This document shows positions 2,117 to 7,117 of a DNA stretch of 64,000 bases, piece by piece; within the stretch, counting starts at the first letter, position 1, and each line of letters begins with the position of its first letter. Origin of the DNA: Hyalangium ruber. Its GTDB lineage: Bacteria; Myxococcota; Myxococcia; Myxococcales; Myxococcaceae. The notes beneath the pieces were generated by a model. It made no database searches, was not told where the DNA came from, and saw only the letters and a program-made list of their open reading frames with translations. The DNA is taken from positions 558,001 through 622,000 of the forward strand of contig NZ_JAXIVS010000004.1 of the NCBI RefSeq assembly GCF_034259325.1, in the 5' to 3' direction. The position numbers and the translations under genes were made by a program.

Positions 2117-3058
2117 TCAGCCGTGCTCGGGCAACGGGGGCACCCCGTCTTTTTCCCCCAGGAGCTGGCTGAGGCTCAGCTCCAGCTGGCTGTTGACGAC
2201 CGCCAGGAAGCTATCGAAGTCCCGGGTGGACAGGCCCAGGCGCGACCGCAGGTGGCGCCGGGTCTCCTCATAGACCGTCTGCCGCGCACTCTTCAGCCAT
2301 CGAGAGACCGTCGATTGATTCACGCGAAACAGCGAGGCCAGCTCATACATCGAGAGCTGATCGACGAAGTAGAGGCGCAGCAGGTGCCGCTCGTCCGCCG
2401 CGAGCGCGGAGAAGGCTTCACGCATGGCCTGGCGAAAGTCCGCGTGGTGGCGCCGCTTGATGAGATCCAGTTCCGCGTCGACCCCTGGCGCCGGCAGTGC
2501 CGCGAAGACGGTGTCCGCATCGTGCTCGGGCGCGGGCTTCTCGACGGCCTGAAGCTTGATAGCGATGCGCACGGCGGAGACACGCACCCAGTTCATCAGC
2601 GCGCCTCGCCCCGTATACTCGACGATCTTGGGTGGCCCTTCGGGCGTGGCGACCAGGATCTTCACACGCGCCAGTTGGCAGACATCATCGATCACCACCT
2701 CGGGTTGCTTGGACCCCCGAAGCAGCGCCGGCAGCTTCGCCAGGTAGTGCCGATCGAAGTTCTCGAGCGCGGCGGGAACCCCGTGCAGACAAGCACATGC
2801 CAGGTAAAGCTCCGCCAGCGACAACTGCTCGAGGAGCGGCGCGATGGGGCTGTCGGGACTTGCCTCGGGCAGCCGCTGAGCGAGGTGAATCACAAACATC
2901 CTGGCAGGGAGCTCCACCGTCGGCCATTTCGCGCGGCCGCCCTGCCAAACGCTCACCAGCAGGTTTTCAAGTGCTTGGGAATCCGCGGGTGGCGCGAGGC
3001 GCGCCTTCGTGTGCGCGAGAAACGTCGCGGCCAACTCCCCATCACGCCCCTGGTCCAT
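2117..3058 (-). CDS. Sigma-70-like RNA polymerase sigma factor, Myxococcales family
   Basis: A 313-residue protein. The C-terminal region carries a sigma region 4-type helix-turn-helix: around residues 205-285 it reads LLRLYFVDQLSMYELASLF followed by VNQSTVSRWLKSARQTVYEE. A central segment with GALMNWVRVSAVRIAIKLQ resembles region 2. The long N-terminal extension and overall length match the multi-copy Myxococcales sigma-70-like family that is often encoded beside Ser/Thr kinases. It would direct transcription of a small regulon. Its neighbour is a divergent kinase with an anti-sigma-type zinc finger, 75 bp away, so the pair probably forms a signalling unit; that link is inference. Confidence 0.85.
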   Translation of the reverse strand: MDQGRDGELAATFLAHTKARLAPPADSQALENLLVSVWQGGRAKWPTVELPARMFVIHLAQRLPEASPDSPIAPLLEQLSLAELYLACACLHGVPAALENFDRHYLAKLPALLRGSKQPEVVIDDVCQLARVKILVATPEGPPKIVEYTGRGALMNWVRVSAVRIAIKLQAVEKPAPEHDADTVFAALPAPGVDAELDLIKRRHHADFRQAMREAFSALAADERHLLRLYFVDQLSMYELASLFRVNQSTVSRWLKSARQTVYEETRRHLRSRLGLSTRDFDSFLAVVNSQLELSLSQLLGEKDGVPPLPEHG

Positions 3059-3133
3059 GGTTTGCCTGTACCATGCGCTTCACAAAGCCAGCAATGGGTG
3101 CCATTGAACCCAGCCGACTGAATAGGTAGTTTG

Positions 3134-6100
3134 GTGCCCCTCGACTCCATGCGTCAGTCCAGCTCCAGCCATCGTGGGCACGGCGCTTCCAGCTGCCTGA
3201 CGGACGAGCTCCTCGTCGATCTCCTCGACGGCAGGCTTTCGAACGAAGAGCTGGAGCGGGCCCATCGCCACGCCACGGATTGCGCCGACTGCAGGGTTCT
3301 GTTGGCCGAAGTCACCCGCGGCGGCCTGGGAGAAGCGCCGGAAATCCCTGGGCCCGCCGTCCCAGCCATGGATGGCGCGCCGGAACCGGGCCTCTCGTGG
3401 ACACCGCCCGAGGTGTTCAACGAGTTCCGTCTCGAGCGGCTGATTGGCCGGGGCGGCATGGGCGTCGTCTACCTGGCGCACGACACCTCACTGGATCGCC
3501 GTGTGGCGGTGAAGTTCATTGCCTCGAGTCAGCCCGAGCCCTGGGTTCGTGCGTACTTCGAGACCGAGGCGCGCGCGCTCGCTCGACTCCAGCACCCGAA
3601 CGTCGTCACGGTGTTTCGCGTTGGCGAAGTCCTGGGACACCCGTACATCGCCTCCGAGTACATCGCCGGCCAGAGCCTCGCGGAGCTGCCCCTGCCGCTG
3701 CCGTGGCGCCAGGTGCTCACCCTTGGCATTGGCCTTGCCAGAGGGCTCGCGGCGGCCCATCGCCAGGGCGTGCTCCATCGCGATCTCAAGCCATCCAACG
3801 CCATCATCAGCGAGGAGGGCGAGGTCAAGCTGCTCGACTTCGGGCTGGCCGATCACTTCGAGCCAGGTGCGGCCTCGACCTCTGGAAGCGCGCAGCTCGT
3901 CGTCGGCACGCTGCCCTACATGGCACCCGAGCTGCTGGAGCGTGCTCCGGCGACGCCGCGAAGTGATCTCTATGGCCTGGGCCTCATCCTCCGCGAGCTC
4001 TGCACGGGGGAGATGCCGCGCCGTGCCTCCGCGCGGTCTGCGCAGGACTTCACGTCCCCCGCACTCTGGCCGGGCGTCGATCCGGACTTCGCCGCCCTCA
4101 TCGCGCGGTGCCTGGCGCCCAACCCGTTGCAGCGCTTCGCCTCGGCAGAGGCTCTATGCGAAGCCCTGGAGCGCTTCGAGCGTCGCATCGCCCCCACGCC
4201 CCTGCTCGAGGGCAATCCCTACCGCGGCCTCGCGCCCTTCGAGGCCGAGCACCAGGCACTCTTCTTCGGACGAGACGCCGACATCCGCGCCGTGCTCGAG
4301 CGCCTGCGCCACCGGCCCATGGTCCTCGTCGCCGGGGACTCTGGCGCCGGCAAGTCCTCGCTCTGCCGCGCGGGCGTCCTGCCCCGGATCGTCGCCAGTG
4401 CCCAGGACGCGGGCCGCGAGCAGGTCACCGTCACCCTGTGGCCTGGCCGCTTTCCGATCGAAGCCCTGGCCTCCGCGCTCGCCCCCGTGCTTGACCAGAA
4501 GGAGGAGGAGCTCGTCACCGCGCTCACGGAGACGCCTGCATCGTTCGGGCGGGCGCTGCGCGAGGCGCATCCGAGCGGCCGGGGCCTGCTGCTCTTCATC
4601 GATCAGCTCGAGGAGCTCATCACCCTCTCCGAGCCCGTCCAGGCGGAGCACTTCGCTCGCTTTCTCGGGGAGCTCGCCTTGCCGTCGGCGGGCCTGCGCG
4701 TGCTGCTAGCGGTGCGCGGTGACTTCCTGACGCGCTTGTGCGCGCTGCCCGGCCTGGGCAGCGAGGCCGAACGCGCGCTCTACATCCTGCGTCCCATGTC
4801 CCCCGACAACGTGCGCGAGGCCATCGTCGGCCCCGCGCGCAGCCGCGGCGTGGGCTTCGAGTCCCATGAGCTCGTCCAGACGCTGGTCGCCTCCACCGTA
4901 CACAGCGCCGGCAGTCTGCCCCTGCTTCAGTTCGCGCTCGCCGAGCTGTGGGAGCGCCGCAACCCGGCGCAAGGCCACCTCACGCGGGCGTCGCTCGAGG
5001 AGATGGGGGGCGTGGCGGGAGCACTGTCCCGGCACGCGGATGGGGTGCTCCGACGCCTGAGCCCAACCGAGCGGGAGGCGGCGCGGCGGCTCCTCCTCCA
5101 ACTCGTGACAGAAGCCGGAACGCGCATCGAGCGCGGTGAAGAGGAGCTCCTCGAGACGTCGGCGGAGGCCTCCCGCGCCGCGCTTCGGGCGCTCGTCGAA
5201 GGCCGCCTGTTGCACACGCGCACCGTGGGCGGCCAGCCGCGCTGTGAGATTGCCCACGACACCCTCGTCGAGAGCTGGGGCACGCTGCGCGACTGGCTCA
5301 ACGACGACATCGGCCACCGAGCGGTGCGCAAGCGCGTCGAGGAGGCGAGCATCGAGTGGGAGCGGCTGCGGCGCGCCCAGGATGCGCTCTGGGGCCAGCG
5401 GCAGCTCGATGAAGCGCGGCCGTTGGACCCGTCCACCCTGGGGTCGCGCGAGCGGGCCTTTCTGCTCGCCTCTCGCCGCGCCGTGGTTCGCCAACGGTGG
5501 GGCCGCTGGCTCGCGGTGCTGCTCCTTACGCTCGCCGCGGGTGCCTCCTATGGCGGCTTCCGCCTGCAGAAGCACCTCGCGGACACGCGCTTCATCGCCG
5601 CCCAGCTCGACACGGCGCGCAAGGCACTCGACACGGGGCGATCCCTCTCCGAGCAGGCCCGCGCGCGTCGGGAGGATGCGCTGGCGCTGTTCGACGGCCG
5701 GGCGCCTCCGTCCGCGAAGCCTGGAACCGCACCGAGTCCCCATGGCCTGCTGGAGGCCGCTGAGCGGCAATGGGCCGAAGCGCTCGACTTACGAGAGCAG
5801 GCCGACGCGGCCTACGCCGTGGCCAGCCGGGACCTCGACGGCGCCCTTGATCGCGATCGAGCCGATGCGGGCACGCGCCGGCTCATCGCGGAGGTCCTCT
5901 ATGAACGCGCGCTCCTCGCCGAGCTCTTTCATCAGCGGCGCGAACATGACGAGTGGGTGCAGCGCCTGGAGCAAAACATCGACACCTCCAAGGAGGGCAC
6001 GGAGTGGCGGCAGCGGCTCGTGGCCCCCGCCGAGCTGGCGCTGGTCACGGAGCCTCCTGGCGCACGCATCGAGGTCGAGCGCTATTTCGACGCGCAGGGG

Positions 6101-7117
6101 TTGCGGCTCCTCGAGCCCGTTCCGGAGGCCGGCGCCCTGGGCCCCACACCCATCGCCCGCGTCCTCCTGCCCCAGGGCTCCTATCTCCTCCACCTCACGA
6201 AGCCCGGCCACGTGCCGGTGAAGCTGCCGCTGCTGCTCACCCCCGGCGCCCGCGAGCAGCTCCGCCTCGTGCTCCCCACCTCGGTGCCTGACGGCTATGC
6301 CTATGTCCCCCCGGGCTGCTTCCTCCAAGGCAGCGCCGAGCCCGAGGTGGTGCGGCGCTTCATGTACAGCTCGCCGCTTCACCGCCTCTGTCTCACCGAG
6401 GGCTATCTGATCGGCAAGCGGGAGGTGACGTTCGGCGACTGGCTGGCCTACCTCGACTCGCTGCCCCCAGAGGCGCCCGCGAGACGGCTCCTCGCGGAGC
6501 CGCGCTTCGGCGACGGTGGGGCGGTCACGCTGCGAGAGCAGCCCGGCGTGGGGTGGAGCTTCTCCTTCCATGGTTCGCGCAAGGACGTCTTCACCGCGAA
6601 GCTGGGAGAGCCGTTCCGCTATCCAGGCCGGACCCGGCGCGACACCGCCAACTGGCTCCAGTTTCCCCTCTCGGGGGTCTCCGCCTTGGACCTGGAGGGC
6701 TACTTCTACTGGCTCGACCGCTCGGGAAGGCTCCCGGGAGCGCGCCTGTGTGGCCAGAACGAATGGGAGTACGCCGCCCGTGGCGCCGATGGACGCCTGT
6801 ATCCGCACGGTGACCGGCTGTTGCCCGATGACACCAACATCGACACCACCTACAGCCGACAGCCCACGGCCTTCGGGCCGGACGAGGTGGGCGCTCACCC
6901 CGCCTCGGTGAGCCCCTTCGGCCTGGAGGACATGGCCGGCAACGCCTACGAAATCACGCGCTCGGAGACCCAGGAGTTCGGGCGTGTCCTCTATCGGGGA
7001 GGCGCCTGGTACTACGACGCCTTCACCGCGTTCAGCGCGAACATCGCGCCGGGCGACCCGATGGCACGCGACGCGCGAATCGGCGTGCGCGTCTGTGCCT
7101 CGTTCTCTCCCCGTTAA
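3134..7117 (+). CDS. Zinc finger-Ser/Thr kinase-STAND ATPase-TM-FGE multidomain protein
   Basis: About 1327 residues. Domains in order: an anti-sigma-type zinc finger near residues 21-60 (H-x3-C-x2-C in HATDCADC); a Hanks-type kinase at about 97-350 with the glycine loop GRGGMGVVY, HRDLKPSN, DFGLAD and APELLE; a STAND-type NTPase from about 360 (NPYRGLAPFEAEH, Walker A GDSGAGKSS); one membrane helix near 785-806 (WLAVLLLTLAAGASYGGF); a coiled, Arg-rich stretch; and a formylglycine-generating-enzyme/sulfatase-modifying (SUMF1) fold from about 1050 to the end. Kinase and ATPase lie on the cytoplasmic side and the FGE-like domain outside, so it resembles a transmembrane sensor. TTG at 3131 and ATG at 3149 are alternative starts; AGG sits 7 nt before the GTG chosen. 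It is divergent from the sigma factor gene. Confidence 0.88.
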   Translation: MPLDSMRQSSSSHRGHGASSCLTDELLVDLLDGRLSNEELERAHRHATDCADCRVLLAEVTRGGLGEAPEIPGPAVPAMDGAPEPGLSWTPPEVFNEFRLERLIGRGGMGVVYLAHDTSLDRRVAVKFIASSQPEPWVRAYFETEARALARLQHPNVVTVFRVGEVLGHPYIASEYIAGQSLAELPLPLPWRQVLTLGIGLARGLAAAHRQGVLHRDLKPSNAIISEEGEVKLLDFGLADHFEPGAASTSGSAQLVVGTLPYMAPELLERAPATPRSDLYGLGLILRELCTGEMPRRASARSAQDFTSPALWPGVDPDFAALIARCLAPNPLQRFASAEALCEALERFERRIAPTPLLEGNPYRGLAPFEAEHQALFFGRDADIRAVLERLRHRPMVLVAGDSGAGKSSLCRAGVLPRIVASAQDAGREQVTVTLWPGRFPIEALASALAPVLDQKEEELVTALTETPASFGRALREAHPSGRGLLLFIDQLEELITLSEPVQAEHFARFLGELALPSAGLRVLLAVRGDFLTRLCALPGLGSEAERALYILRPMSPDNVREAIVGPARSRGVGFESHELVQTLVASTVHSAGSLPLLQFALAELWERRNPAQGHLTRASLEEMGGVAGALSRHADGVLRRLSPTEREAARRLLLQLVTEAGTRIERGEEELLETSAEASRAALRALVEGRLLHTRTVGGQPRCEIAHDTLVESWGTLRDWLNDDIGHRAVRKRVEEASIEWERLRRAQDALWGQRQLDEARPLDPSTLGSRERAFLLASRRAVVRQRWGRWLAVLLLTLAAGASYGGFRLQKHLADTRFIAAQLDTARKALDTGRSLSEQARARREDALALFDGRAPPSAKPGTAPSPHGLLEAAERQWAEALDLREQADAAYAVASRDLDGALDRDRADAGTRRLIAEVLYERALLAELFHQRREHDEWVQRLEQNIDTSKEGTEWRQRLVAPAELALVTEPPGARIEVERYFDAQGLRLLEPVPEAGALGPTPIARVLLPQGSYLLHLTKPGHVPVKLPLLLTPGAREQLRLVLPTSVPDGYAYVPPGCFLQGSAEPEVVRRFMYSSPLHRLCLTEGYLIGKREVTFGDWLAYLDSLPPEAPARRLLAEPRFGDGGAVTLREQPGVGWSFSFHGSRKDVFTAKLGEPFRYPGRTRRDTANWLQFPLSGVSALDLEGYFYWLDRSGRLPGARLCGQNEWEYAARGADGRLYPHGDRLLPDDTNIDTTYSRQPTAFGPDEVGAHPASVSPFGLEDMAGNAYEITRSETQEFGRVLYRGGAWYYDAFTAFSANIAPGDPMARDARIGVRVCASFSPR

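Follow-up and report, generated by a model that had tools for sequence, protein, structure and literature searches.

Known routes of sigma factor control

Zinc anti-sigma factors and neighbourhoods in which a kinase gene adjoins a sigma factor gene are both already known. Helix 4 of class I anti-sigma factors contacts sigma2 and prevents core binding, and anti-sigma domains are known to lose their zinc ligands (PMC7406223). The crystal structure of RslA presents the bundle bound to sigma4 alone (PDB 3hug). As for control by kinases, ECF43 sigma factors are switched on by a neighbouring kinase (PMC8999054, PMC13147305), and these kinase-activated sigma factors are devoid of the acidic DAED motif (PMC8999054, PMC8103513). 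Phosphorylation control has also been predicted from the gene neighbourhood for ECF59, ECF61, ECF62, ECF217 and ECF283 (PMC8999054). In Mycobacterium tuberculosis, phosphorylation by PknB loosens the pair formed by RshA (anti-SigH) and its sigma factor, acting in trans (PMC8999054, PMC13147305).

The gmx1 sigma factor gene and the intergenic region

The window, meaning the whole stretch of 64,000 nucleotides of Hyalangium ruber DNA that was analysed (contig NZ_JAXIVS010000004.1, positions 558,001 to 622,000), carries a sigma factor gene that diverges from the gene of a large zinc-finger Ser/Thr kinase. The sigma factor gene and the region between the two genes comprise:

2117..3058, minus strand: sigma factor gene, TIGR03001 Sig-70_gmx1, 313 aa, with sigma2 at residues ~94-180 and sigma4 at ~197-274
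2153..2227, minus strand: conserved C-terminal helix of the gmx1 sigma, residues 278-302, with Ser283, Ser290 and Ser295
2684..2689, minus strand: codons of D124-D125, an acidic pair at the DAED-equivalent position of region 2.2
3059..3148, no strand: divergent intergenic region, containing CTGTACCATGCGCTTC at 3066-3081

The gene product matches TIGR03001 Sig-70_gmx1 over the full length (E 8e-98; 326.6 bits vs the curated cut-off of 154.6) and thus fully belongs to this family. Pfam recognises region 4 alone in this protein; among 58 gmx1 homologues, region 2 is recognised in five and is too divergent in 53. In the AlphaFold model residues 79-180 match region 2 of sigmaE (Z ~9), and the model also fits a sigmaE-type region 4. 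The protein possesses, in addition, an N-terminal helical part and the conserved C-terminal helix, the latter kept also in most gmx1 sigmas that have no partner. Position 125 is acidic in 141 of the 143 kinase-paired gmx1 sigmas. The conserved serine and threonine residues are S283, S290, S295 and T250. A role of the C-terminal helix serines as phosphosites was weighed and dropped; S283, S290 and S295 are present in the orphan sigmas of loci L090 and L107 as well, and for this reason they cannot decide the mechanism.

The first-pass annotation had placed a sigma-70-like gene 75 bp from a divergent zinc-finger kinase. This arrangement is confirmed by the TIGR03001 and zf-HC2 matches, with a start-to-start gap of 72 bp (kinase start at TTG) or 90 bp (ATG), near the figure first given. 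The ATG at 3149 is the likelier start of the kinase and is common to its nearest orthologue. The sequence CTGTACCATGCGCTTC is conserved between the divergent genes in close orthologues and is possibly a shared promoter element. As a recurring operator it was rejected; it has one exact match in the genome, hence no reuse.

Domain organization of the kinase

The kinase gene encodes the following parts, in order from the N-terminus:

3131..7117, plus strand: zinc-finger Ser/Thr kinase, 1328 aa from TTG 3131 or 1322 aa from ATG 3149
3188..3340, plus strand: anti-sigma-type zinc-binding three-helix bundle, residues 20-70
3341..3427, plus strand: variable linker from the bundle to the kinase domain, no fourth helix predicted
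3428..4159, plus strand: protein kinase domain (Pkinase), residues 100-343, E 1e-44, with VAVK, HRD and DFG motifs
4217..5380, plus strand: nSTAND1 NTPase domain (Pfam), residues 363-750, E 3e-102
5507..5566, plus strand: probable single transmembrane helix, residues ~793-812, weak prediction (Kyte-Doolittle mean 1.5)
6302..7093, plus strand: FGE-sulfatase-like domain (Pfam), residues 1058-1321, E 5e-19

The STAND ATPase and the FGE-like domain proposed at first reading were thus both recovered. The single membrane helix of that reading also has a counterpart, at a place where the prediction is weak. The FGE-like domain is probably extracytoplasmic, and inspection by eye did not reveal its catalytic cysteine pair at the expected place. 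The Hanks-type catalytic Lys, HRD and DFG are all present in the window kinase; a motif search found the three catalytic motifs in 57 of 60 sampled zinc-finger kinases (55 of 60 with HRD). The C-terminal part varies among paralogous kinases, being FGE-like in the window and TPR, pilus-type or other elsewhere. One paralogous zinc-finger kinase (L024:8557-9996) ends in T2SS-T3SS_pil_N, instead of TPR or FGE. The PADLOC matches of the window kinase are generic kinase matches and give no evidence of a role in defence.

The N-terminal zinc finger

In the whole window kinase, zf-HC2 matches residues 25-55 with 18.1 bits, which is under the Pfam cut-off of 22.2; the excised finger domain clears this cut-off with 24.5 bits, and a match is also obtained for 59 of 60 homologous domains. 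The predicted zinc ligand positions are Cys22, His47, Cys51 and Cys54, with a ChrR-like spacing. Judged by its sequence, the window kinase bears the ZAS signature, that is (i) H-x3-C-x2-C lying across helices 2 and 3, and (ii) an upstream Cys or His; at this first ligand position 118 of 143 homologues have Cys and 15 have His (Cys/His in 133/143). The AlphaFold bundle has helices at residues 15-23, 28-40 and 42-58, with pLDDT of ~90-95 over most of its length, and the finger is accordingly modelled as the three-helix bundle of class I ZAS.

A PDB profile search with the finger family retrieved RslA (7e-7), DdvA (3e-5), ChrR (2e-4) and RsiW (1e-3). When the bundle model was submitted to Foldseek, the best 17 matches were all anti-sigma factors, with E-values that are weak (1.7 and above) because the domain is short; VIA-align of the same model gave Z values of 7.3 for ChrR, 5.5 for RsiW, 5.3 for RslA and 5.2 for MucA. 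The profile search also matched residues 8-39 of 8rot_B, the N-terminus of a 991-aa CHAT-domain protein and thereby another enzyme with an anti-sigma-like finger.

Homology of the finger to anti-sigma zinc fingers is supported by profile, model fold, ligand spacing and genomic company. This much of the anti-sigma role suggested for the finger by the first-pass annotation is supported; what counts against full inhibition is helix 4, the sigma2-binding element of class I ZAS, which is absent in the AlphaFold model, where coil follows the third helix and the linker is variable. The finger may therefore dock the sigma factor and not fully inhibit it. Since the RslA bundle binds sigma4 alone, binding without helix 4 is plausible.

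Pairing of the finger kinase with the sigma factor

In the Hyalangium ruber genome all eight TIGR03001 genes above the cut-off have an adjacent zinc-finger kinase. Among 124 kinase hits, nine align to the window kinase through the finger, and all nine are located at these eight sigma loci; the random expectation that eight of eight sigmas adjoin one of nine such kinases is ~2e-17. The profile of the finger alone detects 17 further proteins as weaker matches, of which 16 have an ECF sigma gene within ~0.75 kb (compared by eye), so that 25 of the 26 occurrences of the finger profile in this genome adjoin a sigma gene. At one locus (L027:7507-13682, G000:C16) a single gmx1 sigma lies between two zinc-finger kinases, one in an operon with the sigma and the other divergent, ~1.3 kb away; the second kinase is 59% identical to the window kinase and has no sigma of its own.

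Of the 193 Myxococcota genomes, 107 contain TIGR03001, spread over 38 of 90 genera; the 14 control genomes have none. The survey took in 166 gmx1 loci, selected by the sigma factor alone and belonging to many families. The first-pass annotation held that its proposal would fall if the pair were not conserved in related genomes; a zinc-finger kinase lies within 2 kb of the gmx1 sigma at 143 of the 166 loci. At five more (L079, L169, L176, L178 and L221) a zinc-less kinase stands next to the sigma, its N-terminus having lost all ligands and kept the helical pattern, and L076 contains a frameshifted zinc-finger kinase. Most of the remaining loci have a contig end close by. L078, L090, L092 and L107 have no neighbouring kinase within ~5 kb, the kinase ~4 kb from the sigma at L107 being unrelated.

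The gene order among 60 pairs is divergent in 22, kinase-sigma in 19, sigma-kinase in 16 and convergent in three. Adjacency has thus been kept through a reshuffled gene order, which indicates a functional tie. In six genomes ~41 of 42 gmx1 sigmas have such a kinase, and the strong finger-profile matches in the same genomes are all beside a gmx1 sigma except G113:12178339 (compared by eye). The protein encoded there (L210:3424-6777, G113:C1:12178339), away from any gmx1 sigma, joins CHASE2 and nucleotide cyclase domains to a zinc-finger kinase. A single-protein scan for related loci found only Archangium violaceum.

The sole plasmid-borne relative found, a distant one, is located on plasmid pACIX901 of Granulicella tundricola, a member of the Acidobacteriota (L125:5740-7727). 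Its sigma matches TIGR03001 at 1.3e-20, below the cut-off, and at 99.4% in profile comparison. The next gene, overlapping the sigma gene by 4 bp, codes for a zinc-finger protein that lacks a kinase domain and apparently has a membrane helix. At this one locus, which has no such kinase, the finger thus remains with the sigma, an arrangement that is possibly the ancestral layout.

Joint inheritance is also seen in the sequences of the partners. Distances among sigmas and among fingers correlate at 0.30, compared with a mean of 0.07 and a maximum of 0.23 when partners are shuffled within genomes (p 0.0005). Inter-protein coupling in 143 pairs, taken as the mean of the top 20 couplings, is higher for the real pairing than in 44 of 44 shuffles. 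The finger-sigma coupling of 1.009 is barely above that of kinase columns of equal entropy (mean 0.938, maximum 0.993), and is therefore not counted as proof of contact. Duplication as a cassette could also produce such coevolution.

Proposed mechanism and alternative explanations

From domain homology, retained fold, pairing and joint inheritance we infer binding, a binding site, inhibition and release by phosphorylation. As the pairing recurs throughout the phylum with an anti-sigma module, the kinase is likely to hold and control the neighbouring sigma by direct contact. The best explanation overall, held with slightly better than even confidence, is a single signalling unit in which the finger holds the sigma and kinase signalling releases it. 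Its parts differ in strength: the finger probably binds the neighbouring gmx1 sigma directly, whereas relief of the inhibition by kinase activity is an evenly balanced proposal. In sequential order, the N-terminal bundle would bind the sigma, most likely at region 4, and the bound sigma would be retained at the membrane-bound kinase; a signal received by the exchangeable C-terminal part would activate the kinase; and the sigma would be freed to RNA polymerase once it, the bundle or the linker had been phosphorylated.

With the acidic residue at position 125 kept almost throughout, the gmx1 sigma would be expected to bind core polymerase unphosphorylated and to need restraint, which fits a holding domain. 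Such restraint, lacking helix 4, may be partial and act via sigma4 and the membrane. Binding has good support; the sign of the control, inhibition or recruitment for phosphorylation, does not, because helix 4 is missing and the acidic motif is kept.

Recruitment would mean that the bundle has no anti-sigma role and brings the sigma to the kinase, phosphorylation then activating it at a site different from that of EcfP. This alternative draws on the ECF43 precedent, on the complete set of catalytic motifs, HRD included, in 55 of the 60 scored kinases, on the lack of a helix 4 that would block sigma2 and on the conserved S283, S290, S295 and T250. It is nevertheless considered rather unlikely, for conservation of the acidic residue (141 of 143 paired sigmas) makes the charge-restoring mechanism of EcfP inapplicable, the three serines persist in kinase-less L090 and L107, and the acidobacterial relative has a zinc finger without a kinase.

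Less probable still is a finger that serves the kinase itself, in dimerisation or in redox or zinc sensing, and makes no sigma contact, the linkage arising from phosphorylation of the sigma or from sigma-driven transcription of the kinase. The narrow distance between finger-sigma and kinase-sigma coupling is in line with this, as is the L210 kinase with its CHASE2 and cyclase domains away from any gmx1 sigma. This idea is improbable given that 25 of 26 finger-profile occurrences in the Hyalangium ruber genome adjoin a sigma gene, that the kinases aligning through the finger there are all sigma-linked, that the five zinc-less versions retain the helical pattern and that the acidobacterial domain stays beside the sigma in the absence of a kinase. 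Chance neighbours sharing a divergent promoter region, with no functional relation, are ruled out for practical purposes by the conservation of the pair, which is phylum-wide, occurs in four gene orders and has the very low random expectation given above.

A myxobacterial genome encodes some hundred Ser/Thr kinases or more, and few of their targets are known. For a defined subset of them the sequence points to a target, in that zinc-finger kinases would act on, or through, the adjacent sigma. The pairs are modular and numerous, and specificity and sign are therefore directly testable.

Comparison with known systems

The TIGR03001 model names the sigma family and is silent on its kinase partner. 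A membrane-spanning Ser/Thr kinase that carries its own anti-sigma domain may represent a new architecture of sigma control, a claim to which even weight is given for and against. In it sensing, kinase and capture would be combined in one protein, present as several paralogues per genome with exchangeable sensors and as the standard gmx1 partner in Myxococcota. Its origin would lie in an ordinary zinc-finger anti-sigma protein, a kinase having entered between the finger domain and the membrane part. None of the papers searched describes a sigma family whose standard partner is a kinase with a fused anti-sigma bundle; the main classification papers lay outside that search, and an earlier mention is possible.

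Class I ZAS proteins (ChrR, RslA, RsiW, DdvA) share with the window kinase the H-x3-C-x2-C motif with an upstream Cys or His and the three-helix bundle; with gmx1 kinases in general they share a gene position beside the sigma, zinc-less versions and, often, a membrane anchor. Unlike them, the window kinase has no helix 4 and contains, in the same protein, a Ser/Thr kinase that is catalytically complete by its motifs.

EcfP with its kinase in Vibrio parahaemolyticus, EcfK-PknS in Xanthomonas citri and the ECF43 group resemble the gmx1 pairs in that a Ser/Thr kinase adjoins the sigma and likely controls it. The window sigma has the adjacent Ser/Thr kinase gene that characterizes ECF43; the other ECF43 trait, replacement of DAED by uncharged residues together with a phosphorylatable Thr or Ser, is not present, since D124-D125 occupy this place. 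EcfP and EcfK are without the DAED acidic motif, whereas gmx1 sigmas keep acidic residues there. The named representatives of ECF59, ECF61, ECF62, ECF217 and ECF283 come from planctomycetes and actinobacteria; the gmx1 sigma comes from myxobacteria and has a divergent region 2.

In the PknB/RshA system the kinase and the anti-sigma factor are separate proteins; in the gmx1 pair they would be one. If the finger binds the sigma, the anti-sigma and Ser/Thr kinase routes, both major ones in bacterial signalling, would be merged in a single protein.
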